DNA from: Bacteriovoracaceae bacterium
GTDB lineage: Bacteria; Bdellovibrionota; Bacteriovoracia; Bacteriovoracales; Bacteriovoracaceae
DNA length: 64,000 nucleotides
NCBI GenBank assembly: GCA_018675575.1
Contig: JABGXW010000134.1
Location: 1 to 64,000, forward strand
Reading direction: 5' to 3'
A program made the position numbers and the translations under genes. Below the pieces are notes generated by a model. The model made no database searches and had not been told where the DNA came from. It was given only the letters and a program-made list of their open reading frames with translations. Positions 19,297-54,542 of this stretch are shown one piece after another (within the stretch, counting starts at the first letter, position 1; each line of letters opens with the position of its first letter).

Positions 19297-20226
19297 TTAG
19301 AATCCGACAAAGAAACCACCATTTTCATCTGCAACTTTTTTAAGAAATCTGTATTTAGGATTTCTCGTATTTCGAAGAAAGTCCGAACCAACACCGATAG
19401 TACTTATCTGAACTCTATTATTGTTTTTGATTTTGATATCAGAGGCTACAGAATCAATATTGTCGATCATTTTAGAATTCTTTTTTGTAGGGGCCCCATC
19501 TGATAGGAGAACAATATCTGTTGCAGATTTATAGTTTCGTAAGACATATTTCATAACAGATCTTGTAGGTGTTGATCCCCAAGGCTTTAAATCTTGTAAA
19601 AAGTCATAGACCGATGTTTTATTTCTTTTAGACATCTTCTTTGTTCTTCCCCATAACGTGCGATAATCATGAGTCATTCCGTCTGGGAAATGAACAACAT
19701 CGATATTAAACTCATCACCCATAGATGTAATTAACATCTTAAGACCAGCTTTCACTTGCCCTATCTTATCTTCTAAGAACATGGATCCTGAGACATCAAT
19801 AACCAGGACTATATTTTTTCCTTTGAATTTAAAACCGACATCTACAGGAACGGATGCGACTTTTCTATCTTGAACTTTTTCTATCTTCTCTTGTAACTTC
19901 TTAATTGTTTCGGCCATCGTTTCTTTTGAAGACTCTAATTCTTCTTGCTTCTTTTTCATTTGCTCAATGGTTTTAGTCAATTTTACTGTCTTTTGTTTTA
20001 TCTCTTCTTTTTCATTAAATTTTGCCGTGTAATCAGATTGTTTGTCTATTATGGACTCTTTTGGAATAAATCTTGCGTAGCCTTCCTTAGCTTTGATTTC
20101 TGCTAATTTTGGGTTTGGGTTCTTGGCCTTAGGTACAGTAACAAAGAGAATAATCACTGCCCCTAATGCTCCTGACAGGAGATCAAGAAAGGCAATTGAA
20201 AATACATTTGTTTCTCTTCTTTTCAT
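19297..20226 (-). CDS. Membrane-anchored VWA domain protein with ExbD/MotB-like N-terminus
   Basis: The 309-residue protein starts MKRRETNVFSIAFLDLLSGALGAVIILFVT: a basic cytoplasmic tip and one transmembrane helix with an aspartate (D15) at its start, as in ExbD/TolR/MotB. A coiled coil follows at about 70-120, then a VWA domain at about 132-300 with an intact MIDAS (DVSGSM, later threonine in GSTPTRS and LLSDGAP). Its partner, an ExbB-like protein, is encoded 3 bases upstream. The pair resembles an ion-driven channel whose periplasmic part is a VWA domain instead of a peptidoglycan or TonB-binding domain. Confidence 0.8.
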   Translation of the reverse strand: MKRRETNVFSIAFLDLLSGALGAVIILFVTVPKAKNPNPKLAEIKAKEGYARFIPKESIIDKQSDYTAKFNEKEEIKQKTVKLTKTIEQMKKKQEELESSKETMAETIKKLQEKIEKVQDRKVASVPVDVGFKFKGKNIVLVIDVSGSMFLEDKIGQVKAGLKMLITSMGDEFNIDVVHFPDGMTHDYRTLWGRTKKMSKRNKTSVYDFLQDLKPWGSTPTRSVMKYVLRNYKSATDIVLLSDGAPTKKNSKMIDNIDSVASDIKIKNNNRVQISTIGVGSDFLRNTRNPKYRFLKKVADENGGFFVGF

Positions 20227-20229
20227 CTC

Positions 20230-21000
20230 TTAAATCTCAATCCTATTGACTAAATTTTCAATTACATATTCTTTTATTCCAGCATGGAGGTTATCTGTTT
20301 CTTCTTGAAGTCCATGGAAAAACCACATAACTACAATACTTAGAATGAGTGAAATGAGAGTCGTATCGAAGGCAACACCTAGAGTGGATGTGATAATATT
20401 CATATCTCCAGTGTTTGCAACCATTAAGGCCTGGGAAATACCTAAAACAGTCCCAATGAATCCAATAGAGGGGATTACCCAAGTTAAATACCTTATATTG
20501 GATTGACCTGACTCCGCTTTCTCTTTATTTATTTCTGTTTGGATTGAAATAATCTCAATGACTTCAGGAATTGACTTTGTTGTTCTAAATTTCACACATG
20601 CCTTCTTTATCATAGTGGACAATAGAGAACTTTTGTTGGCCTTTTCTAAATCACCCATTTTAAATTGAAGATCGTTTATGTCTGTTGCCATTAAGAGATG
20701 ACGTTCATTAGTTGGGAGGTATGATTTTTTAAAAGATTTCTTTTCGTATTTTATTTTGCTTCTTTTTTCAATAATATCGAAAAGTGACCAGAAGAAAGCA
20801 ATATAGGTGAAAAGTTGAATATAGCCACCAGCTAGAAAATTTCCACCAAAAAGGACAGAGAGACGATTTCCAGTTCCTGTTCCAGTTAATCCTCCAGTAA
20901 GCTTATAACCAAGAATTGCACAAATCGTAATTCCAATTCCAAGAATAATAGAAATAATCACAGTCATAAATTTTTTTGAAATAGTCATATCAAATTCCAT
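20230..21000 (-). CDS. MotA/TolQ/ExbB-like proton channel protein
   Basis: The 256-residue protein has transmembrane helices at about 10-35, 50-70, 165-190 and 205-230. The last pair has the family arrangement WVIPSIGFIGTVLGISQAL and STLGVAFDTTLISLILSIVVMWFF, with the conserved proline/glycine and threonine region lining the proton path. The cytoplasmic loop between helices is long. It is followed 3 bases later by the TM-VWA gene, so both are made together. No OmpA-domain or TonB gene accompanies them. The start could be ATG at 21000 or 20988. Confidence 0.85.
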   Translation of the reverse strand: MEFDMTISKKFMTVIISIILGIGITICAILGYKLTGGLTGTGTGNRLSVLFGGNFLAGGYIQLFTYIAFFWSLFDIIEKRSKIKYEKKSFKKSYLPTNERHLLMATDINDLQFKMGDLEKANKSSLLSTMIKKACVKFRTTKSIPEVIEIISIQTEINKEKAESGQSNIRYLTWVIPSIGFIGTVLGISQALMVANTGDMNIITSTLGVAFDTTLISLILSIVVMWFFHGLQEETDNLHAGIKEYVIENLVNRIEI

Positions 21001-43516: not shown

Positions 43517-45364
43517 TTACATTTTCTCTGTCTCTGAAAAAAATGATAATGGCTGACTAACATCAACAACCCCTCCTCCTTTAGGTTTTGGAAATGGAAT
43601 TAACTTTAATACTCCCGCCATGCAACCAACTCCCGATTTCGAAAAACTTGAATTCTTGACAATAATATTTACTTTTGAAACTAGTCCCGTTTGACCTATT
43701 CTAAAATCTAAACCAATTATACCCTTTAGCTTTTCATTTGCTTGAAGTTCTTTTTGGTAACAATGTCTAAATTGAGGAAGGTATTCTCTTAAGATCTTAC
43801 GTAACAGTTCAGGGTCCATCGAACCAAGTACAATCGTTTTGGTATCAAAATAACTAGCGTCTATTCCAGATTTAGAAGCAAGGCCAAAAGCAGCAGATGA
43901 AAAGTTGAACTTGCCCTCGAAGTCTTGCCCTAAGCTATTGTGATTAATTGATTTCATAGTTTTTAAACCTTTTGTATCTTGAACATTAGTAGATTCAAAT
44001 CCTACCTTAGTATTAGCAGTAATCTTCTTTAAATCCGTTTTTGATATATTTGTAGTGTTTGAAAACAGAGAATTGAATGATTTATAGGACGTAAACTTGT
44101 AGGCCTTCATTTTAGGTTTCTTTTTTATTGATAGATGTTTGATCTTGGCCATCTTTGATTTTATAAAACTTTTGGAAGTCTTATTTAATTTCTTGTTTAT
44201 ATTAAGATTACTTTTTGCAAGTTTAGTAAGCGACTTCTCGTTCTGGTTATTGTCTGCTATGGACTTTGATATGTTTTTAATCGGAGCTTGAATCATCTTT
44301 CTGTAAATTACTGCTATTTTTTTATTTTTTTTCTCATTAATATTGATATCCACAAATAAAAGTAAGAGCATCAACCCCATGATCATAGAAAATATTTTTG
44401 CAGTTTGTTTTTGAAAGTTTATATCTCTTCCGAAAAAAGGAGAAAACGTTAATGATGGAGGTGCATTAACAACTTTTATTATCATCTGGATAGTTTTACG
44501 TTCATAACTTATAATATCGTCTTCTATCATTTGATAATCGTTTTCAATGCTTTTACCATTCGTAATATTTCTAGAGCTATAGTTTGGAAGAGGTAATAAA
44601 TTAATTGAATTATTTTCGATAGAACAAAATGGTATTAGAACATCGGTGTCAAGACTTATGACCTGCAAGGTTTTCTTGTCTTGCACAGTTGAACTAGCGT
44701 ATATATCACCCTCCTTGCAAGGAAAGTAACTCACATTGAGAATGATTCCCATTGACATAACTGTAACTTCAATTGCTTTAGATTTATTGTTTCTAATAAT
44801 ATTACGACTTTCTTTATTTTCATCGAATTCAATATAATCGGAAGGAACAGGATTAATGAGAGCGGGGATATAATCAAAAGCTTTGTAATCCTGTTCATTA
44901 AAAACGATATCGCAATATTCATCATCTATTACAACGAGCCCTTTTTTAGGAATCAATTTAGCCGGTTTTGTAATAATTTCTATTTCATCTATCTGGTTAA
45001 GACCTTGATCTTGATTATTGATAATTTTATTTTCGTGATAAGTATGAAAATTCTCTGTGGTCAGGTATTCAATTCGCCCAAATCTTATTGCATCTCCCTC
45101 AGAGAAAAATCCGGAGTTAACTTTTTCATTATTAATATAAACACCGTTGACACTGTCAAGATCAATAATTCTACCACCATTACTTTCTATGATTAACATT
45201 GCATGGTAAAAAGAGATTGAAGAGTCATTAATAATTAGGTCACAAGATGGAGAAGAGCCTATAAGAATCTTTTTAGTATCTAATATGAGTTCATTAACAA
45301 CTTGTCCTGAACTATATTGAGTTATTTTAAGTAGATTTTGATGTAATTTGTTTTTTACAAGCAC
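43517..45364 (-). CDS. GltG-like protein: FHA domain, one TM helix, AgmX/PglI C-terminal domain
   Basis: The 615-residue protein has a cytoplasmic FHA domain at about 30-105 (LIGSSPSCDLIINDSSISFYHAML, then DLDSVNGVYINNEKV), a long linker, a single membrane helix at about 322-340 (MGLMLLLLFVDIN) and a lysine-rich periplasmic stretch. A TonB-like AgmX/PglI domain closes it at about 510-610 (LREYLPQFRHCYQKEL, GLDFRIGQTGLVSKVNI, GCMAGVLKLIPFPKP). This matches the layout of Myxococcus GltG, which links cytosolic and periplasmic parts of the gliding complex. GTG start with GGAG upstream. Last gene of the operon. Confidence 0.78.
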   Translation of the reverse strand: MLVKNKLHQNLLKITQYSSGQVVNELILDTKKILIGSSPSCDLIINDSSISFYHAMLIIESNGGRIIDLDSVNGVYINNEKVNSGFFSEGDAIRFGRIEYLTTENFHTYHENKIINNQDQGLNQIDEIEIITKPAKLIPKKGLVVIDDEYCDIVFNEQDYKAFDYIPALINPVPSDYIEFDENKESRNIIRNNKSKAIEVTVMSMGIILNVSYFPCKEGDIYASSTVQDKKTLQVISLDTDVLIPFCSIENNSINLLPLPNYSSRNITNGKSIENDYQMIEDDIISYERKTIQMIIKVVNAPPSLTFSPFFGRDINFQKQTAKIFSMIMGLMLLLLFVDININEKKNKKIAVIYRKMIQAPIKNISKSIADNNQNEKSLTKLAKSNLNINKKLNKTSKSFIKSKMAKIKHLSIKKKPKMKAYKFTSYKSFNSLFSNTTNISKTDLKKITANTKVGFESTNVQDTKGLKTMKSINHNSLGQDFEGKFNFSSAAFGLASKSGIDASYFDTKTIVLGSMDPELLRKILREYLPQFRHCYQKELQANEKLKGIIGLDFRIGQTGLVSKVNIIVKNSSFSKSGVGCMAGVLKLIPFPKPKGGGVVDVSQPLSFFSETEKM

Positions 45365-45365
45365 G

Positions 45366-46259
45366 TTAACTCCGCTTATTGGCGAGTATTCCTTCGCTGT
45401 ATTTAGAATCCTTTAGCAGTTCAAGCTTACGTTCAATAATTATGCTAAGGCCATCTCGCATCACTTTTATTGGTTTAATCATGGTATATTGTCCATTTTG
45501 CAACATCTTTTTTGCTTTTTCTAAAAATCCTAATTTAAATAATACTATAGCGTATTGTCCCGAAATATCTTCTCTTTCTAGATACTTTCTATTAACTTTT
45601 TCGTAATACTTCTTTGCAATTTTATATTTTCCTTTTAATAAATATATTGTTGCTCGAGATGAAATAACATCTATATCTTGAGGAGCTTTACTATACAAAA
45701 AATCTGATAACTCTTTTGCCTTCTTAAGCTGAGCAAATTTAATATAAAGCTGAAGCATGTTAAACTTTGGTGTTAGTAAGGTACCTTCAGAATCCGCTTT
45801 TTTTAGACTCGATAATGCTAGATCGTATGCCCTCAATTTCATATAGACGAGTCCTAAATTATTTAATGCCGGAGAAAAGCTAGTCAGAGTTGTTCTCGCT
45901 TTGACTCCTTTAGATATAGAAATATTAAAAAAGTATTTAGCTTTTGGTAAATCATCATTCAGATAATGGCAGGTTCCAATATGATTCCAATAAATAGGAT
46001 TATTCCTTTCTTTTTTTATTTGTTTCTTTAACAAACTGAGTCCATAGGAGATTTTTCCTTGATGACAGAATGTCACCGCTCTTTGGATACTATTATCCCT
46101 TGACTGAACTAATTCAAAACGCTTGGTACTATAACGTAAAAATGATTCTCCTGCTAGAAGATCGTTCTTTTTATTCTCAATAATTGTTTTTAATTTAAAG
46201 TTTGAGCAAGAAGAAGATAATAAAGAAATGAAAAATATTAATCCAATAAATTTGATCAT
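45366..46259 (-). CDS. TPR lipoprotein, GltE-like
   Basis: The 297-residue protein has a lipoprotein signal (MIKFIGLIFFISLLSSSC, C18) and TPR repeats through about residues 60-260 (GLSLLKKQIKKERNNPIYWNHIG, LNNLGLVYMKLRAYDLALSSL). In Myxococcus, GltE (AglT) is a periplasmic TPR lipoprotein of the gliding apparatus encoded next to GltD and ahead of GltG, the same order as here. Its gene overlaps the large TPR gene by 4 bases and ends one base before the FHA gene. Confidence 0.72.
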   Translation of the reverse strand: MIKFIGLIFFISLLSSSCSNFKLKTIIENKKNDLLAGESFLRYSTKRFELVQSRDNSIQRAVTFCHQGKISYGLSLLKKQIKKERNNPIYWNHIGTCHYLNDDLPKAKYFFNISISKGVKARTTLTSFSPALNNLGLVYMKLRAYDLALSSLKKADSEGTLLTPKFNMLQLYIKFAQLKKAKELSDFLYSKAPQDIDVISSRATIYLLKGKYKIAKKYYEKVNRKYLEREDISGQYAIVLFKLGFLEKAKKMLQNGQYTMIKPIKVMRDGLSIIIERKLELLKDSKYSEGILANKRS

Positions 46260-49174
46260 TTTAAAACCCCTTCGGTATCAGCAGTAGAAATTAATTTACT
46301 CGCAAGGTATTTGTATTTTATTTTTTTGATAAAGTTATGATCTTTTAAAAATGTAAAATTTTTAAAACTTAATATGTCATTTCTATATATTATTGCCTTA
46401 GCGTTAATTCTATAAGCGTGTGCTTTTGTTTCTAAGTTGTTGATAAGCGATGTCATGGCAATTCTAAATCCTTTTTTAAAGTCCTCATTAAAAAAAGCTG
46501 GGGTAATGTTTGATATTTTATCCATTAATTCATAATATTTATTATTTAAAACTATATATGTTCCAAGTATCAACTCCTTGTGTCCTTTCAAAATAAGCTT
46601 CTCTGCTTCAATGGATAAGTTTTGCAGTTTTTTTAAATTATCCTCTAGGGATAAATTAAATTCTTTTTCATGGAATCTTTTTTTGTTACCTTTAAATTCA
46701 AAGGAAATACTATTTGAGTAGATCAAAAACTTGTCAAAATTTTTAATGTCATTTATCATTTGGTATTGTTCTCTTGAAATTCCCTTCTTATTTGACAGTC
46801 TTATCAATTGCTTTTTTACTTTTTTTCCAAGTTTTATCTGGTTAGTATTTTGTGTATCCCAATAGATGTCAATCATTGATGTCAGCACACTTTTTGCTAA
46901 AAAATTAAAATAAGAAGACTTTTCTATCGAATTGTAAAATTTGAAAAAGCTTTTATATAGTCTTTGTTCCTTTAAAAACTGGATTATGTTTTCTCCATTC
47001 TGAATAATTACATTTTGTGAAAGTTGACACTTTTTTCCTCGTTTGAAATTTATCAATGCCGCATGATAATTATTATCAACTAATTGATGATGTACAGTTA
47101 AGTTATAAAGCATGTTCTTTTCATTATAATTAATACTACAGAAATCATTAAGCAGTTTACTTGCCAGTAGAGCAGACCTTTTAAAATCTTGTAATAACGC
47201 TAACTCTTTAACAATTATTGAAAGTCTTGGAATTAGGTACTGCTTATCTTTTGGCGAGTGTTTTATTAAAGACCGATTTATCCATTTGTAAGCATTCTTT
47301 GTGTCAGCTAAATCTAGGTAAATTAAAGCTGCATTATAGGCCGATTGAGCATGAATTTTATTAGGGTATCGTTTGTCTTGAAATAAGTTTTGATATCCTT
47401 CGATTGCCATCACTTTATTACCATTTAAGTCTAATGATTGATATTTGTTAAATAATAATGATCCTAAGATTGCTATACTTTTTTCAAGGTAAGACTTATT
47501 GAAGTTTAAATATCCCTTCTGTAATTTTGTAATACATTCTGATAAGTTCTCTGAATCCTTAATGGAAATGTAATGATCCATAATTCTTGTATACAAAGCT
47601 TTTTGATGTGTCTTTTCATTTTTGTAATGTTTCTTGTATTTATTAAATACGACTAGAGCTTTTTGTATTTCTTTCTTCTCTATGTATAGATTGAAAAGTC
47701 GCCCATAGATTTTTTTGCTGGTTCTGTTAACTGGCCATATCTGGATATGGTTTTCGTATACAAAGATTGTGTTTTTTAAATTTAACTTCTTATCAAAACC
47801 TGTTGACCCAATTAGTGAAAGAAAAGATTTAAATATTTTTTCTTGTAACGTGGAAGGGTCTCTTATTGAGCGTTTATTAATTGAAATATTTATTGCTTCT
47901 GTGTAGGCCGTCGCAGATTCCTTATACTTTTTAACAGAGTAAAAAGTTTCACCAATGTAATAATAATACTTCTCTTTATTAATCTTATCTAAGTTAGCAA
48001 GAATCTTAAAGTAAGAGATGATCTTTTCCAACTTTTTATCCTCATAGCTTTTATTATTAAGTTTTAAATTACCTGTTAGTCTTATTTGAAGATACCCTAC
48101 TAATGAGCTTATTTTATTCACAGCTTCTGATCTTTGTATTGCAGTCATCTCTTTCTTAAAACTTAGAATATTTAACTCAACTGCTGTTTTGAAATATAAC
48201 TTGAACTTTTTAAAGTTTCGATAGATATCCAGTTCGTTTAATCTTATCTCAATTACTTTTTTAGTTCGCTTGAGTGCTTTTGCATTATCTAAGGCTTTTG
48301 AAAGAACCGCTTTTGTATCTTTAAATAGGCCTTTATGGGCAGTCTTCTTTGCCATAGAAATCAAATAATCAGTAGGGTCGATTACATTATCCTTGTAAAA
48401 GATGATCCCTTCCCTTATTTTTTTTCCATGAACAAAGAAGACTACAAATGATTCAAGTATTTGTTCTCTCATAGATATATAACGGGGATTTGACGACTCT
48501 TTAAATGATATCTCTAAATTATTAAGGGCCTTGTCCATTTGATTAATTTTGAGTAAACACCACGCTTGATTAAATAAATGTCTTGTATACCAATCGTCTT
48601 CTTTGTTTTTGATAACATCATTATAATATTTTACAGCGAGTATATAATTTTTATTATTATAGTAATACTCAGCTAAAGAAGCTTTGGCATTGTGAATGAT
48701 TTTGTCATGTTTTTGTGCGTGTTTTAATGAAAGTTTTAAATAATACTCTGTATCTTTGTCATCACCATAGTCTCTTTCATTTAGGGCAAGAGTATAGTAA
48801 ATACGCGCAGTTTTGTTGAACTTAGGATATTTTGAAATTATTTTAAGACCCATTCTTTTCACTGTATTGAATACCTTTTTGGATTTTTTAAAATACCATG
48901 ATTTAGGGTGATTTCTTTTCTTTGCATTTAGAAATTGTTCATTTTCTTTTTCAATCATTAATCTGATCTTTTCAGACTTTAATTCAAGTAATCTATACTG
49001 AAGCTTGGGACCTAATGAACCACGTTGTTTTATTGCTTTTTCTTCCTTTAAGATAAGGGAATTTAGAGTTGTCCATCTCTCTTTAGCATTTTGGATGTTA
49101 TTATTATCAGCAAAAACAATATTTTTGATGAGTAAAATCACAAAAAATGTAAGAATATAAATCTGATTATTCAT
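46256..49174 (-). CDS. Large periplasmic TPR protein, GltD/AgnA-like
   Basis: The 972-residue protein has a signal peptide (to about FA, residue 22) followed by helical repeats over nearly its whole length (RIYYTLALNERDYGDDKDTEYYL, ASLAEYYYNNKNYILAVKYYNDV, YYYIGETFYSVKKYKESATAYTEA). It is lysine-rich, as expected for a basic periplasmic scaffold in this AT-rich genome. Position and architecture match GltD (AgnA), which spans the periplasm in the gliding complex. Start overlaps the ExbD gene by 8 bases. Confidence 0.68.
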   Translation of the reverse strand: MNNQIYILTFFVILLIKNIVFADNNNIQNAKERWTTLNSLILKEEKAIKQRGSLGPKLQYRLLELKSEKIRLMIEKENEQFLNAKKRNHPKSWYFKKSKKVFNTVKRMGLKIISKYPKFNKTARIYYTLALNERDYGDDKDTEYYLKLSLKHAQKHDKIIHNAKASLAEYYYNNKNYILAVKYYNDVIKNKEDDWYTRHLFNQAWCLLKINQMDKALNNLEISFKESSNPRYISMREQILESFVVFFVHGKKIREGIIFYKDNVIDPTDYLISMAKKTAHKGLFKDTKAVLSKALDNAKALKRTKKVIEIRLNELDIYRNFKKFKLYFKTAVELNILSFKKEMTAIQRSEAVNKISSLVGYLQIRLTGNLKLNNKSYEDKKLEKIISYFKILANLDKINKEKYYYYIGETFYSVKKYKESATAYTEAINISINKRSIRDPSTLQEKIFKSFLSLIGSTGFDKKLNLKNTIFVYENHIQIWPVNRTSKKIYGRLFNLYIEKKEIQKALVVFNKYKKHYKNEKTHQKALYTRIMDHYISIKDSENLSECITKLQKGYLNFNKSYLEKSIAILGSLLFNKYQSLDLNGNKVMAIEGYQNLFQDKRYPNKIHAQSAYNAALIYLDLADTKNAYKWINRSLIKHSPKDKQYLIPRLSIIVKELALLQDFKRSALLASKLLNDFCSINYNEKNMLYNLTVHHQLVDNNYHAALINFKRGKKCQLSQNVIIQNGENIIQFLKEQRLYKSFFKFYNSIEKSSYFNFLAKSVLTSMIDIYWDTQNTNQIKLGKKVKKQLIRLSNKKGISREQYQMINDIKNFDKFLIYSNSISFEFKGNKKRFHEKEFNLSLEDNLKKLQNLSIEAEKLILKGHKELILGTYIVLNNKYYELMDKISNITPAFFNEDFKKGFRIAMTSLINNLETKAHAYRINAKAIIYRNDILSFKNFTFLKDHNFIKKIKYKYLASKLISTADTEGVLK

Positions 49175-49661
49175 ATTTTCCTTGTACTATAAATTTAAAC
49201 TCTGGGAACCCTGCTAATGCTGAAGTATGCATTACACGACTTAGCACTTTGTAGGGGAGACTTTTATCTAATACTATATTTATTTTCTTTGTTTTTGTTT
49301 TAATAATATTTTTATCGCTAATATTTGATGGAATCTTTGAATTAACTAATTTTGAAAATAAGATAGGTATAGTATCAACGCCGTCCTTATATTTTCCAAT
49401 CAGTTTATTGTTTATGAATATCTTTCGATTTCGGTTGACTTGTACAATGATTGATTGGTTTCCTAAGGTTGTTGATCTACTGTTTGGTAAGGACATATTT
49501 TCCACTAAATCAATTTTAAGATCTGATGCATTGTATGACTTTAGCAGGAAAACTAATAAAATTACTAAAATATCTAAAAGTGAAGTAATGTCAAGGTCAA
49601 GAACTTCCTTGTTCTCTTTTTTAAATTTCCTTAACATCCTTTTTTTCTTATATATGTTCAT
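49167..49661 (-). CDS. TolR/ExbD-like protein (AglQ/AglS-like), second copy
   Basis: The 164-residue protein has a basic N-terminal tail, one transmembrane helix with the proton-carrying aspartate (ITSLLDILVILLVFLL, D30) and a periplasmic ExbD domain ending with IVLDKSLPYKVLSRVMHTSALAGFPEFKF. With the preceding ExbD gene and the TolQ-like gene it forms a channel set of one TolQ and two TolR homologues, as in AglR-AglQ-AglS of the Myxococcus gliding motor. Confidence 0.82.
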   Translation of the reverse strand: MNIYKKKRMLRKFKKENKEVLDLDITSLLDILVILLVFLLKSYNASDLKIDLVENMSLPNSRSTTLGNQSIIVQVNRNRKIFINNKLIGKYKDGVDTIPILFSKLVNSKIPSNISDKNIIKTKTKKINIVLDKSLPYKVLSRVMHTSALAGFPEFKFIVQGKYE

Positions 49662-49668
49662 ATTAACC

Positions 49669-50184
49669 CTATATAATTGTTTCGAATATAATCTGTTTGA
49701 AAAGTTTATCTGTTTTAATGAATTTTCCGAATTTATCTTTACCTCGTATTATTTGAATACCAGGTTCTATACTTCTGACAGAATCCATAATATTGACAAT
49801 CTTTTCATAAGAAATTTTCGATTTGGGTCTCAAAATGATTGAATCTTCTTCCATGTTTTTTGACTTAATTGATCTTAATTCTTTAGAGAGAGACTTTAAG
49901 TCGTATCTATTACTAATATTTGGAATTGTTTTATAGATATGACCATTTACACCTGTCTTTATGACAATTGATTTAGAATTTATATCCAATACTAGATTTA
50001 AAGGAGGTCTTTTCTCTTTGATTGATTCTATCAGTGAGATTGCTGGTGCATCAGATCCAATCTCATGAATATCAACAAATTGAGCTGACATCAGAAGAAA
50101 AAAGATAAAGATAAAAACTGCATCCAATATAGGAATAAGGTTTAATCTTTTAATGTATTTTTTCCTTTTATGAATATTGTTCAT
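49669..50184 (-). CDS. TolR/ExbD-like protein (AglQ/AglS-like), first copy
   Basis: The 171-residue protein begins with basic residues, then a helix with the channel aspartate (LIPILDAVFIFIFFLLM, D21) and a periplasmic ExbD domain (VLDINSKSIVIKTGVNGHIYK, ILRPKSKISYEKIVNIMDSV). Its start touches the stop of the TolQ-like gene at base 50184, so they are translationally coupled. The two ExbD copies differ strongly in sequence, which argues for distinct roles in a heteromeric motor. Confidence 0.83.
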   Translation of the reverse strand: MNNIHKRKKYIKRLNLIPILDAVFIFIFFLLMSAQFVDIHEIGSDAPAISLIESIKEKRPPLNLVLDINSKSIVIKTGVNGHIYKTIPNISNRYDLKSLSKELRSIKSKNMEEDSIILRPKSKISYEKIVNIMDSVRSIEPGIQIIRGKDKFGKFIKTDKLFKQIIFETII

Positions 50185-50879
50185 TAGGCAACCTTTTTGG
50201 TTACTTTATTTGCTACAGACTGCTTTCTTGTACCAATAAGATCAATAAGCTTTAGTGAGTAATGTTCTATATCACCAAGAATTTTGTCTGACTTACACAT
50301 TAAAATTTGATGAATCACCATTATAGAGATTGCTGATATCAGCCCCATAGCAGTTGTATTCATTGCTTTTGATATACCTAATGCTAATAATTTTGCTTTA
50401 GATGAAGGGTCAGCATTTGCAACTGCAGCGAATGATTGTATCAGGCCATAAATTGTTCCTAATAATCCAATTAATGTAGAGACATTTGCAATCAATGCAA
50501 GATAGCCCATTCGTTTATCAACTTTTGGACTCACTTCAAGAATAGATGCTTCAATTGCGTCTTGGATTTGTTCTTTAGATTGATTTGCTCTTTTTAGTCC
50601 TGACCTAAGTACAGCAGGTAGTAATGCATTGGTATCAGAGCATGTTTGAATAGCAATTGCGACTTGATTTTCAAGGATATGTTTCTTAATTAAACTCATC
50701 AAGCTTGGACCATCTATGTCGTAGCTAAATAAACACTTTATTCTTTCTACTGCTATTGATACACCAAAAATCCAAATAGCTAAAATAACCCACATGAATA
50801 TTCCTCCCTCATTCATGAATATGGCAAGGGATTGTATAAAACTCGGTTCCATTACATTTTTAATAACTTCATTTTCCAT
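50184..50879 (-). CDS. TolQ/MotA-like motor protein, AglR-like
   Basis: The 231-residue protein has three main helices: about 22-42, 127-150 (LIANVSTLIGLLGTIYGLIQSF) and 163-190 (GISKAMNTTAMGLISAISIMV). The last two hold the conserved TolQ/ExbB proline-free channel motifs with T and G residues. In Myxococcus AglR, with AglQ and AglS, converts proton motive force into gliding force. AGGAG precedes the ATG. It follows the 87-residue secreted protein gene by 9 bases. Confidence 0.85.
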   Translation of the reverse strand: MENEVIKNVMEPSFIQSLAIFMNEGGIFMWVILAIWIFGVSIAVERIKCLFSYDIDGPSLMSLIKKHILENQVAIAIQTCSDTNALLPAVLRSGLKRANQSKEQIQDAIEASILEVSPKVDKRMGYLALIANVSTLIGLLGTIYGLIQSFAAVANADPSSKAKLLALGISKAMNTTAMGLISAISIMVIHQILMCKSDKILGDIEHYSLKLIDLIGTRKQSVANKVTKKVA

Positions 50880-50888
50880 TATAAACTC

Positions 50889-51152
50889 CTAACGAAGGTT
50901 TTTAATCTCCTGAATCACTTCCTTGTTAAAATCTGAACGGTCAAATAAGTCTCTACTAAACGTTCTTCGGGCACGATCCTTAACCGATAAATCTCCGGGA
51001 GCTATGACCTTCCCTTTTATTTCTAAATTTCCTAAATCAAATTTCTCATAACTTTTATACTTATATATAAGATTCGTTTTTTTCTTTTTATCTCTGCATA
51101 AAACATTGTTTGGTGATATTAAGATAACAAATATTATAATTATATTTTTCAT
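50889..51152 (-). CDS. Small secreted protein of the gliding operon, possibly CglF-like
   Basis: The 87-residue protein has a signal peptide (MKNIIIIFVILISPNNVLC). The mature part carries LGNLEIKGKVIAPGDLSVKD and then FDRSDFNKEVIQEI. This recalls small deltaproteobacterial proteins with an I-x-G-x-V-x-x-P core encoded beside TolQ/TolR gene sets; CglF is one I would compare it to. I cannot confirm that from memory. The cysteine at the signal end may be a lipidation site. It overlaps the TPR gene by 4 bases. Confidence 0.6.
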   Translation of the reverse strand: MKNIIIIFVILISPNNVLCRDKKKKTNLIYKYKSYEKFDLGNLEIKGKVIAPGDLSVKDRARRTFSRDLFDRSDFNKEVIQEIKNLR

Positions 51153-52633
51153 TTTGAAACCTCATTGCTTTCAATTGATGCTTGTGTTTTAACTCTTATT
51201 AACTCACAATTACTTTTCAGACCAAAAGAATAATCTCCCAACTCATCGGCCCAAAACTCACCTTTAAAATCATAAAAATGTTCTTGAGCTTTTCTGCTTA
51301 TATTTTTATGACTACCTCGACTTCTATCAGCAATTAACATTTTGTTTTTCCATACTAAATCTCTTTTTTTTGCTAAAATCTCTATTTTAATGTTAAACAT
51401 TTCGTAGCTAAATCTATGAATATCATTTATAAAATCAAACATTTTCTTTTTAATAAAATGATTAAGATGCGTTGTTCTTATCCTTAAAGTTTCTTTAAGC
51501 TCATCTTGTAATATATCTGAAAGTTTTCCACTGTGCAGCTTTTGTAAGTTTTTTAATTCATTCTGAACGCGTTTGTAAGCAACTAAGTCAATAGAGAACT
51601 TAATTTTCTTTCGTATTTGTGTCATTAAGTTTCTTATGTATGGATTTAACTTTTCTACAACATGAATTGGAGCAAACATCATTTTAAGAAAATATGTATT
51701 AGAATGCTTGTGATCTATGAGTAAAGCTTTAAGTGCCTCAGATCTAGTCTTATAGACTTTGTAATATTGTTCAATTGTTTTTAAAGAGTCTCGATAAAGA
51801 CAAAGTTTAAAGTAAGATAAAGATTTTAGAACTTCAGTCTCAGGAAAAAAATAGCTACTAAGGAGTGGAGATTTGTAGGTAACTATAATACCTAGGCTTC
51901 GATTAAAATCTTCAAGCTGATACGCTGTCCATGCTTTTTCAATCAGCATAAATGGCCATTGATAAGAAACTTTTGGAATTAAATTATACAATTCCATAGA
52001 TTTATCATAATTTGCATTTTTGTATTCGATTCTAGCTAAATGTATGGCACAAGTGTCTTTTAAGATTGAATAATAACGTCCTTGTTTTTTTACAGAAGAT
52101 ATTTCCTCTAACTCTTTGGCAATCTTTATACAATTCATATAAGATTTCTCAGCTTCAAGGTCTTTATTTATCATAGTATTGGCTGCACCCTCCATCATTC
52201 TTGCCTCTGCGCTAAACCTATGATGATTAGGGATGACGGTTAGCGTCCTTAAGGCCTGTTGCCATTTTTTCTTTTGACTTAATCTAAAACCATAGGCCAG
52301 CGCGATTGAAGGACTGTAGAGATGCTTTTTCAAGGTTTTTTCTTGCATGTAACTAAATGACATAGTTCCTGTTTTAAGAATTAATTTCTCTATATATATT
52401 TCAAACAATGGATCAATTTTATTAATTTCAGCAATATAATTTTTTGAAAAGGCAAGTGATGAGAAAAAATACTTACTTTGAAATAGATCAATAGCTAATC
52501 TACGATCCCGATCTGGAGTTTGTGTCTCTCTAAAAATTTCATAAGATGTATTAATATCAGCGTAGGCAAATTCTATAGTTATAAAAACTACAATTATTGA
52601 TATAAATAGAATAAATTTCCTATAAATAAACAT
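51149..52633 (-). CDS. Periplasmic TPR protein, GltC-like
   Basis: The 494-residue protein has an N-terminal signal (to about YA, residue 25) and helical repeats (FFSSLAFSKNYIAEINKIDPL, AIHLARIEYKNANYDKSMELY, AWTAYQLEDFNRSLGIIVTYK). The C-terminal third is a predicted charged coiled coil, then a short segment FKGEFWADELGDYSFGL. GltC of Myxococcus is a periplasmic TPR protein encoded beside the outer-membrane barrel genes gltA/gltB, as here. AAGGAT precedes the start. Confidence 0.65.
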   Translation of the reverse strand: MFIYRKFILFISIIVVFITIEFAYADINTSYEIFRETQTPDRDRRLAIDLFQSKYFFSSLAFSKNYIAEINKIDPLFEIYIEKLILKTGTMSFSYMQEKTLKKHLYSPSIALAYGFRLSQKKKWQQALRTLTVIPNHHRFSAEARMMEGAANTMINKDLEAEKSYMNCIKIAKELEEISSVKKQGRYYSILKDTCAIHLARIEYKNANYDKSMELYNLIPKVSYQWPFMLIEKAWTAYQLEDFNRSLGIIVTYKSPLLSSYFFPETEVLKSLSYFKLCLYRDSLKTIEQYYKVYKTRSEALKALLIDHKHSNTYFLKMMFAPIHVVEKLNPYIRNLMTQIRKKIKFSIDLVAYKRVQNELKNLQKLHSGKLSDILQDELKETLRIRTTHLNHFIKKKMFDFINDIHRFSYEMFNIKIEILAKKRDLVWKNKMLIADRSRGSHKNISRKAQEHFYDFKGEFWADELGDYSFGLKSNCELIRVKTQASIESNEVSK

Positions 52634-52644
52634 TAATATAATCC

Positions 52645-53382
52645 TTAGAATGAATAACCAACAGAGAATATAATATCGCTGTTAGATCTCCACTTCTCTG
52701 CAGTAATTACTCCTGTTTGTACAACACCTGGAGCTTCATAATATAAAACTTGAAGGTCTATACCTACATGAATATGTTCAGTGGTATGAAACTTCAAACC
52801 TGTTTTAACAGTAACACCTGTATACTTCTCTTTGCTGTAAATATCCTGAGAAAACGAAGACGCTGCTGTTTCTTTATTACTTACAGCAGTAATTTGGGAC
52901 AAGCCTGCGCCTATATTCCAGTCAAAATAAAATATTTTATTAAAGGTATTCACTTTTCCATAAAATGGTGACCAGATCCCCATGACTCCATAGGCTTTTA
53001 ATAACTGTCTTGAGAATGGAATTGAACCATTAACATCGCCTAATGTTTTATAGGTCTCATTAGTACTGTTAGAATATGAATTATAATTTATTTCAATTGC
53101 CCACTCTTCAGTAAAGTAATACCCGCTTGATAAGTTAAATAAAGTCGAATCAAAAAAATCATTTGATTGATTAAACCCCAAACCTATATTTATATAGTAG
53201 CTTTTCTTTTTTTGGTAAACTTTTTGTTGTAAAACATAGACCTTCTTATCTTGATCGAGCCACAAGAAGTCATAAAGATCCTTCTCGGATGAATAGATAC
53301 TCCCTGAATACAACGATACTATTGCTACCATACATAATATTGCTACAGAGCTTATGTTTAAATGTGGAAATATAAGTTTCAC
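52645..53382 (-). CDS. Outer-membrane beta-barrel of the gliding operon (GltA/GltB/CglE-like)
   Basis: The 245-residue protein starts at a GTG with GGGGAG upstream. It has a signal peptide (to about SGSIYS) and a short linker, then an eight-strand-like barrel (KKSYYINIGLGFNQS, GYYFTEEWAIEINYN, FHTTEHIHVGIDLQV) ending IIFSVGYSF. Size and ending fit the small barrels of the gliding apparatus. In Myxococcus such barrels hold the complex at the outer membrane. It is 11 bases before the TPR gene. Confidence 0.72.
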   Translation of the reverse strand: MKLIFPHLNISSVAILCMVAIVSLYSGSIYSSEKDLYDFLWLDQDKKVYVLQQKVYQKKKSYYINIGLGFNQSNDFFDSTLFNLSSGYYFTEEWAIEINYNSYSNSTNETYKTLGDVNGSIPFSRQLLKAYGVMGIWSPFYGKVNTFNKIFYFDWNIGAGLSQITAVSNKETAASSFSQDIYSKEKYTGVTVKTGLKFHTTEHIHVGIDLQVLYYEAPGVVQTGVITAEKWRSNSDIIFSVGYSF

Positions 53383-53402
53383 ATTTCTCCCCTATAAATT
53401 CA

Positions 53403-54542
53403 TTATTTTTGTACTAAGTATGTGATGCTTATCTCACTACCTGCTGATGGAATAGATTTCTCATTAAAAATGATATTCTTTGACTTCTCATCATAGCGAT
53501 AATCTGAAGTTTCAATATTATTGATTAAGACAGTTATTTCATTATTGACAGGTGTCGAAGCTAGAGAAAAACTTTTAAGTAAGTAGACAATTTCGTTACC
53601 AAAATCTGATAAGGTTTGATAAAAGTCATTGTTAATATCTGCAATTACACCATTTGTACCCAGAGATAAATCTATATAGCGACTGCCTTTGCTTTCCCAT
53701 TTTGCAGATGTCTCTTCCACATTTACAATTGAGTAGACTTTGACCATACCTTCATGATCTTTAATTGATTTAAGGCGTTCAATATAATTATTTACTGACT
53801 TTCTTGATTGATCTTCTTCATCGGAAACAATTACTACGATAAAATAAGCATCTTTTCTCAAAAACTTATTCTCTATATTTTTATCTTCGTAATGATGTAA
53901 AAACCTGTCAGTAGCATTTAATCCTTTCTCTCTTCCAGATCCCTTGGTGCCAACTTTTATACATTTTTCAAACATATGAAAGAAATTTTGCTTATTAACC
54001 GCTGCATGCTCTGAATTAAGCACATGCCAATCACATACCATTTTTCCGTCTATTTTTTTACTAGGGTCAGTTGTTGTAATGGCCATTCTAAAATCTATAT
54101 CTTTCAATATAAACTCTTGAATAAATGCATCAAAATTATAGCTCATAGATGCTTGCTCATCTTTCATTGATCCCGAATCATCAATAACCCAAAGAATATC
54201 TACTTTTGAGTATGTTTTGGATGTTTGAGTGAATACTTCAGTCTTCATTGTAAAAGATGGTGAAGTCCATTCTTCTTTATCAAAAGGACAGTCGATATCA
54301 TGTGCTTGATCTTCATCATGCCTATGAGTAGGGTTCTCTTTATCATAATTATTTGGATGTTCTGGTGAATCTAATGGAATATCTACAGATGTAGGTACGT
54401 CTCCATCATTATCAACACCAATACCTTTTAAAAATTCTTTTTGAAAAAATTCAGCTTTATTGCATGCACTGATTGAGGCAAGCAAAGTACACAGTAATAG
54501 ACCTTTAATAATATTAAATGTTAAATTATGTATCAAAACCAT
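53403..54542 (-). CDS. VWA-domain lipoprotein, CglB-like adhesin
   Basis: About 379 residues from the ATG at 54542, which has GGAG 6 bases upstream; an open frame extends to 54656. The lipobox ends ASISAC (C27). An acidic linker leads to a VWA domain at about 112-330 with MIDAS DDSGSM and conserved acidic DEE loop. The C-terminus is a short beta domain (SAGSEISITYLVQK). CglB of Myxococcus is a VWA lipoprotein at the outer membrane that serves as the gliding adhesin. It is the first gene of the operon here. Confidence 0.78.
   Translation of the reverse strand: MVLIHNLTFNIIKGLLLCTLLASISACNKAEFFQKEFLKGIGVDNDGDVPTSVDIPLDSPEHPNNYDKENPTHRHDEDQAHDIDCPFDKEEWTSPSFTMKTEVFTQTSKTYSKVDILWVIDDSGSMKDEQASMSYNFDAFIQEFILKDIDFRMAITTTDPSKKIDGKMVCDWHVLNSEHAAVNKQNFFHMFEKCIKVGTKGSGREKGLNATDRFLHHYEDKNIENKFLRKDAYFIVVIVSDEEDQSRKSVNNYIERLKSIKDHEGMVKVYSIVNVEETSAKWESKGSRYIDLSLGTNGVIADINNDFYQTLSDFGNEIVYLLKSFSLASTPVNNEITVLINNIETSDYRYDEKSKNIIFNEKSIPSAGSEISITYLVQK

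Follow-up and report, generated by a model that had tools for sequence, protein, structure and literature searches.

Results

Ten tightly packed genes, all co-directional on the (-) strand, occupy positions 43517-54542 of the window, by which we mean the whole stretch of 64,000 nucleotides that was analysed (Table 1). They are transcribed in the order cglB-like gene, barrel gene, gltC, gltF, aglR, aglQ, aglS, gltD, gltE and gltG. An earlier note on this DNA had named nine of these open reading frames as a single-operon set of the Agl/Glt type, and all nine do lie on this strand in the order it gave. Its further statement that the genes follow each other with overlaps or short gaps holds for junctions of 20 bases or less, but leaves a 269-base "gap" between gltC and aglR; that interval contains the tenth gene, and once gltF is counted every junction in the set is an overlap or a gap of at most 20 bases. 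The neighbours are unrelated to the operon: beyond gltG, on the (+) strand, lie genes for a DUF547 protein and a RecQ-like helicase, and 346 bases upstream of the cglB-like gene, on the same strand, lies an alpha/beta hydrolase gene. Scans for promoters and terminators returned signals at chance level, which we set aside. Judged from gene content and packing, the operon is real; its ten genes span about 11 kb and look like a single transcription unit.

Table 1. Genes of the agl/glt operon in the window, in order of transcription.
Gene and product	Position	Strand	Basis
cglB-like, predicted surface lipoprotein, MIDAS/VWA motif ILWVIDDSGSMKDEQ, lipobox ISAC	53403..54542	(-)	sequence; NF052240 1.7e-13, NF033765 1.2e-9; first position in 13 related loci
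outer-membrane beta-barrel, GltA/GltB-type position adjoining gltC	52645..53382	(-)	TIGR04565 100.9 bits, over its cut-off of 60; PF13505
gltC, periplasmic protein	51149..52633	(-)	NF033756 E=3.2e-29
gltF, secreted protein of 87 aa, 4-base overlap (ATGA) with gltC	50889..51152	(-)	one copy per set; profile link to set III
aglR, TolQ/ExbB-type motor subunit	50184..50879	(-)	MotA/ExbB model PF01618 92 bits; AglR tree
aglQ, TolR/ExbD-type motor subunit	49669..50184	(-)	ExbD model PF02472 45.8 bits; Asp in predicted membrane helix
aglS, second TolR/ExbD-type motor subunit	49167..49661	(-)	ExbD model PF02472 50.1 bits; Asp in predicted membrane helix
gltD, large secreted TPR-like protein	46256..49174	(-)	weak TPR; homology and synteny with gltD of sets II, III and relatives
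gltE, TPR lipoprotein	45366..46259	(-)	TPR_1 9.2e-13; homology and synteny with gltE of sets II, III
gltG, FHA domain, membrane helix, TonB-like tail	43517..45364	(-)	PF00498 1.9e-13; NF033760 6.7e-32; NF033768 over cut-off

The first gene had been called CglB in the earlier note. What stands is a CglB-like, putative MIDAS lipoprotein, recognised from its DxSGS motif and lipobox; the two models that match around the DxSGS motif, NF052240 for the Bdellovibrio MIDAS adhesin and NF033765 for CglD, both score under their cut-offs, and the Pfam VWA models gave no match to the protein at E<=0.05. A PDB sequence search with the protein also gave no match. We prefer the ATG at 54542 as its start, the mechanical open reading frame being open to 54656 (TTG). 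The CglB-like proteins of two relatives of the same genus (L064:1-1014 and L152:1-975) have repeats of the NGDTG type at a contig-edge start, and the protein in the window is without them. Separately, a Bdellovibrio MAG (L147:2487-5327) encodes a 946-residue protein that weakly matches the CglB profile and is followed by a barrel, gltC and gltF, in a gene order resembling that of the window; a contig end cuts this locus.

The motor genes encode one TolQ/ExbB-type and two TolR/ExbD-type subunits, distinct from Tol/Exb proteins, and all three score far below the cut-offs of the Tol/Exb equivalog models. GltC (102 bits against a curated cut-off of 450) and GltG (111 bits against 650) match the NCBIfam gliding models with E around 1e-30 but far below those equivalog cut-offs, so that on sequence comparison both are homologues rather than certified orthologues. 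The FHA domain of GltG is N-terminal, and its tail is the part that the AgmX/PglI domain model NF033768 recognises. PDB searches returned only ExbB/TolQ with AglR and only FHA domains with GltG. GltD and GltE are identified by their TPR matches and by homology to syntenic genes; neither matched a specific published model.

The earlier note had reported that GltF is lacking, having overlooked the gene between gltC and aglR, whose product has a signal-peptide-like start. A profile for GltF in this position, built from twelve family loci including that of the window, also detects, with E from 1e-21 to 1e-16 and zero decoy hits, the gene that separates gltE from gltG in set III, another of the agl/glt sets of this genome (see below). 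A search with the set-III profile then picks up the small gene at the gltE-gltG position of Bdellovibrionales sets (best 1e-8), and of its 72 hits with E<1, 68 carry the label GltF in such sets; the reverse search, with a Bdellovibrionales GltF profile, recovers set-III genes at up to 1e-12. Compared directly, the window's GltF matches the Bdellovibrionales profile only weakly (E=0.18), and the connection goes via set III. In M. xanthus gltF encodes 89 residues with a signal peptide and lies between gltE and gltG (PMC3169522). We therefore assign the gene as a GltF homologue by its size, its signal peptide and the gltE-gltG position of its counterparts in related sets, and not by comparison with Myxococcus GltF. 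Searching the genome itself gives exactly four copies, one per set. All 57 family genomes sampled (38 genera) contain GltF, with one to five copies in each; it has been reported only from Myxococcales and Bdellovibrionales (PMC3169522).

This genome carries four agl/glt sets. Set I is the ten-gene set of the window and set II lies on contig C6. Set III is in two pieces, on C73 and C97, as is set IV, on C108 and C121, the joins in both cases being drawn from the gene order in the relatives G001 and G009. Sets I and IV have a putative MIDAS adhesin of their own in the operon. In set IV, aglR (L056:1847-2551, (-) strand) contains one in-frame TGA, which may reflect a pseudogene, a polymorphism or an assembly error; the G009 orthologue (L070) is intact. 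MglA, which the earlier note had suggested seeking elsewhere, is represented by a homologue on C116 (L173:1294-1884) that scores 299 bits to 5ymx, the solved M. xanthus MglA. A short protein adjoining it looks Roadblock-like by eye and gave no PDB match. The absence of GltJ from the window, also claimed earlier, is borne out by a model search, which gave nothing beyond a match to the tail domain on C121 and one of 21 bits, a weak score, on C71, both outside the window.

Elsewhere in the window, at 19297-21000 on the (-) strand, the gene for a MotA/TolQ/ExbB-type protein precedes one whose product has a membrane helix at its N-terminus, a coiled-coil-like stretch and a VWA domain at its C-terminus; by its sequence features this is a second motor-like pair. 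Its matches to ZorA/LmuB are marginal only, and a link to Zorya defence was dropped, the ZorA matches being weak.

The phylogeny of AglR, proposed in the earlier note as a check, sets the Agl-type motors apart from the TolQ/ExbB-type proteins of the same genome, which fall outside them on long branches with support of 94/96, just short of the tool's firm-support mark. The tree is unrooted, with a midpoint root for drawing only, and contains no myxobacterial rows. The AglR proteins of sets I, II and III fall into a single family-level clade (98/98), and therefore the window's set appears to stem from a duplication that took place inside the family or close to its base; on the tree it is a derived copy in a family-specific triplication. 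Of the Bdellovibrionales types, A and C cluster with each other (94/94) and B is placed separately.

The adhesin-first arrangement recurs in 13 fetched family loci, and 11 of the 13 have the identical ten-gene order. At one locus (L153) the motor is missing from its place between gltF and gltD, and at another (L158) the motor genes are relocated. A scan of genome contigs gave 80 loci, none of them from Myxococcota. The named Bdellovibrionota loci among them, contig permitting, mostly read barrel-barrel-gltC-gltD-gltE-gltF-gltG-aglR-aglQ-aglS. Seven named Bdellovibrionota genomes add further types, of which several begin or end with a MIDAS gene. Consolidation at one locus is the usual state among the Bdellovibrionota loci fetched. 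One record titled as a Streptomyces griseus MAG (L101) bears a typical Bdellovibrionota agl/glt set, and its title looks wrong.

Discussion

The earlier note contrasted this operon with the dispersed loci of Myxococcus, and correctly so (PMC3169522). The M. xanthus Agl/Glt system (clusters G1, G2 and M1) together with CglB offers homologues of the motor, of GltC, D, E, F and G, of the barrel and of the VWA adhesin; unlike the window, however, it has its genes over separate loci, includes GltH, I, J and K, and has two GltA/B barrels. Outside Deltaproteobacteria the agl/glt core of carriers has been reported as one cluster, and Bdellovibrio bacteriovorus has four expanded sets (Luciano et al. 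2011, PMC3169522), the operons Bd0412-0420, Bd0828-0838, Bd1473-1483 and Bd2368-2377 (Lambert et al., PMC2797640; PMC3169522). Since one-locus sets are already published (PMC3169522, PMC2797640) and are usual in the Bdellovibrionota fetched, consolidation is unsurprising in itself, and the operon is a new example of the compact operons described in the group of the predatory bacterium Bdellovibrio in 2010-2011.

Like this genome, B. bacteriovorus has consolidated sets, four per genome, and in one of its sets a gene at the edge, bd1483, encodes a MIDAS lipoprotein. The order in the Bdellovibrionales relatives compared differs, however, from that of the window: L203, L210, L212 and L214 have the MIDAS gene before the motor, with barrel and gltC last, and others have the adhesin last or two leading barrels. 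An equation of the window's operon with Bd1473-1483 was dropped, the adhesin-bearing Bdellovibrionales sets being differently ordered. Our matching of order types to Bd numbers is a tentative one by gene counts, the fetched records being of other genomes than B. bacteriovorus. The Group B core of Gammaproteobacteria, Geobacter and Fibrobacter likewise has aglR, Q and S with gltC, D, E and G in one region, but with an extra gene of its own and with gltF not reported there (PMC3169522).

We think it likely that the ten genes encode an Agl/Glt-type envelope machine of a Bdellovibrionota bacterium, driven by the proton motive force, one of four such sets, and probably specialised for gliding or for prey handling. 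Its Agl/Glt identity, as the earlier note proposed, is borne out part by part by the profile matches, by a GltF in each set and by the AglR tree. Gene content, homologies, co-directional packing, set number and conservation are read directly from the DNA; subunit topology, proton drive, adhesin coupling and motility are carried over from work on Myxococcus and Bdellovibrio. By that analogy AglR, AglQ and AglS would form an inner-membrane motor powered by the proton motive force, and GltG, with its FHA domain inside and its TonB-like tail in the periplasm, would take up the force. GltD, GltE, GltF and GltC would pass it across the periplasm to the barrel of GltA/B type; GltA and GltB are paralogous outer-membrane barrels that bind GltC (PMC4488436). 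The CglB-like MIDAS lipoprotein may then be displayed at the barrel and pulled or unmasked against a surface or a prey cell, CglB being the unmasked adhesin of the Myxococcus machine (PMC12288465).

In favour of such a machine we count the profile matches, the GltF gene in each set and in all 57 family genomes, the packing, the same order in 11 of 13 loci, the four sets, MglA, the split in the AglR tree and the published precedent. Against it we count the low scores of GltC and GltG relative to the equivalog cut-offs, and the fact that GltH, I, J and K are not recognised in the operon, GltJ being the one sought with a model. These four proteins are essential in Myxococcus. They are absent from B. 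bacteriovorus, a known glider (PMC3169522).

Does the machine serve locomotion? With four sets per genome, any single one might not serve motility. A narrower reading of the same machine, and a quite possible one, is that it acts as a surface transporter or adhesin displacer driven by the proton motive force, during attachment to prey, entry into it or the setting-up of a niche, or that it handles a polymer in the manner of Nfs. Besides the number of sets, several precedents favour this. None of the paralogous M. xanthus sets (G3/Nfs, G4, G5 and M2) serves motility, and the Nfs paralogues function in sporulation (PMC3169522). The Nfs system, whose glt-like genes are likewise clustered, is powered by AglRQS (PMC3858216) and differs in function. 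In B. bacteriovorus the agl/glt sets are up-regulated at prey entry and exit, with Bd0411-0421 and Bd2368-2377 peaking at different predation stages (PMC12546842), and its MIDAS-type adhesin Bd0875 functions during prey invasion (PMC11003981). However, an MglA in the genome and a CglB-like protein in the operon are what would be expected of a gliding-type adhesion machine. Later work also ties the B. bacteriovorus operons to surface gliding, bd1480 of operon Bd1473-1483 being surface-induced (PMC9140294). Returning to the envelope machine in the broader sense, its place as one of four sets within a family-specific triplication leads us to regard the window's set as probably a specialised copy, for gliding or for a prey-handling step.

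That the operon might be a minimal or ancestral gliding machine, as the earlier note suggested, draws on a gene content near the Group B core plus GltF, one barrel and an adhesin. We consider this improbable: GltF is present, the set is one of four, its AglR falls inside the family clade of sets I-III, which points to duplication inside the family, and type-A sets of Bdellovibrionales differ from the window's in gene order and in carrying two barrels. A Tol-Pal or TonB-type system misread as Agl is very improbable, for although AglR, AglQ and AglS match the TolQ/ExbB and TolR/ExbD models, their low scores against the Tol/Exb equivalogs, the pair of ExbD-type proteins beside GltC, GltF and GltG homologues, and the branching of the genome's other TolQ/ExbB-type proteins outside the Agl-type motors all speak against it; of the relations that the earlier note named as refuting its reading, an origin from Tol-Pal is thereby disfavoured.

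More speculatively, Bdellovibrionota might run several Agl/Glt machines in parallel, some with a MIDAS adhesin of their own (sets I and IV here, and the adhesin-bearing sets of Bdellovibrionales), each devoted to its own stage of contact, for example scouting, entry or exit; we put this forward tentatively and regard it as rather unlikely as it stands. The operon leaves the known distribution of such machines unchanged, and the idea of a missing GltF is corrected. With motor, force relay, barrel and candidate adhesin in a single apparent transcription unit, it would be suited to reconstitution or to single-deletion tests. Moreover, the linkage of adhesin and motor genes fits the CglB force-transfer model, here from another lineage.
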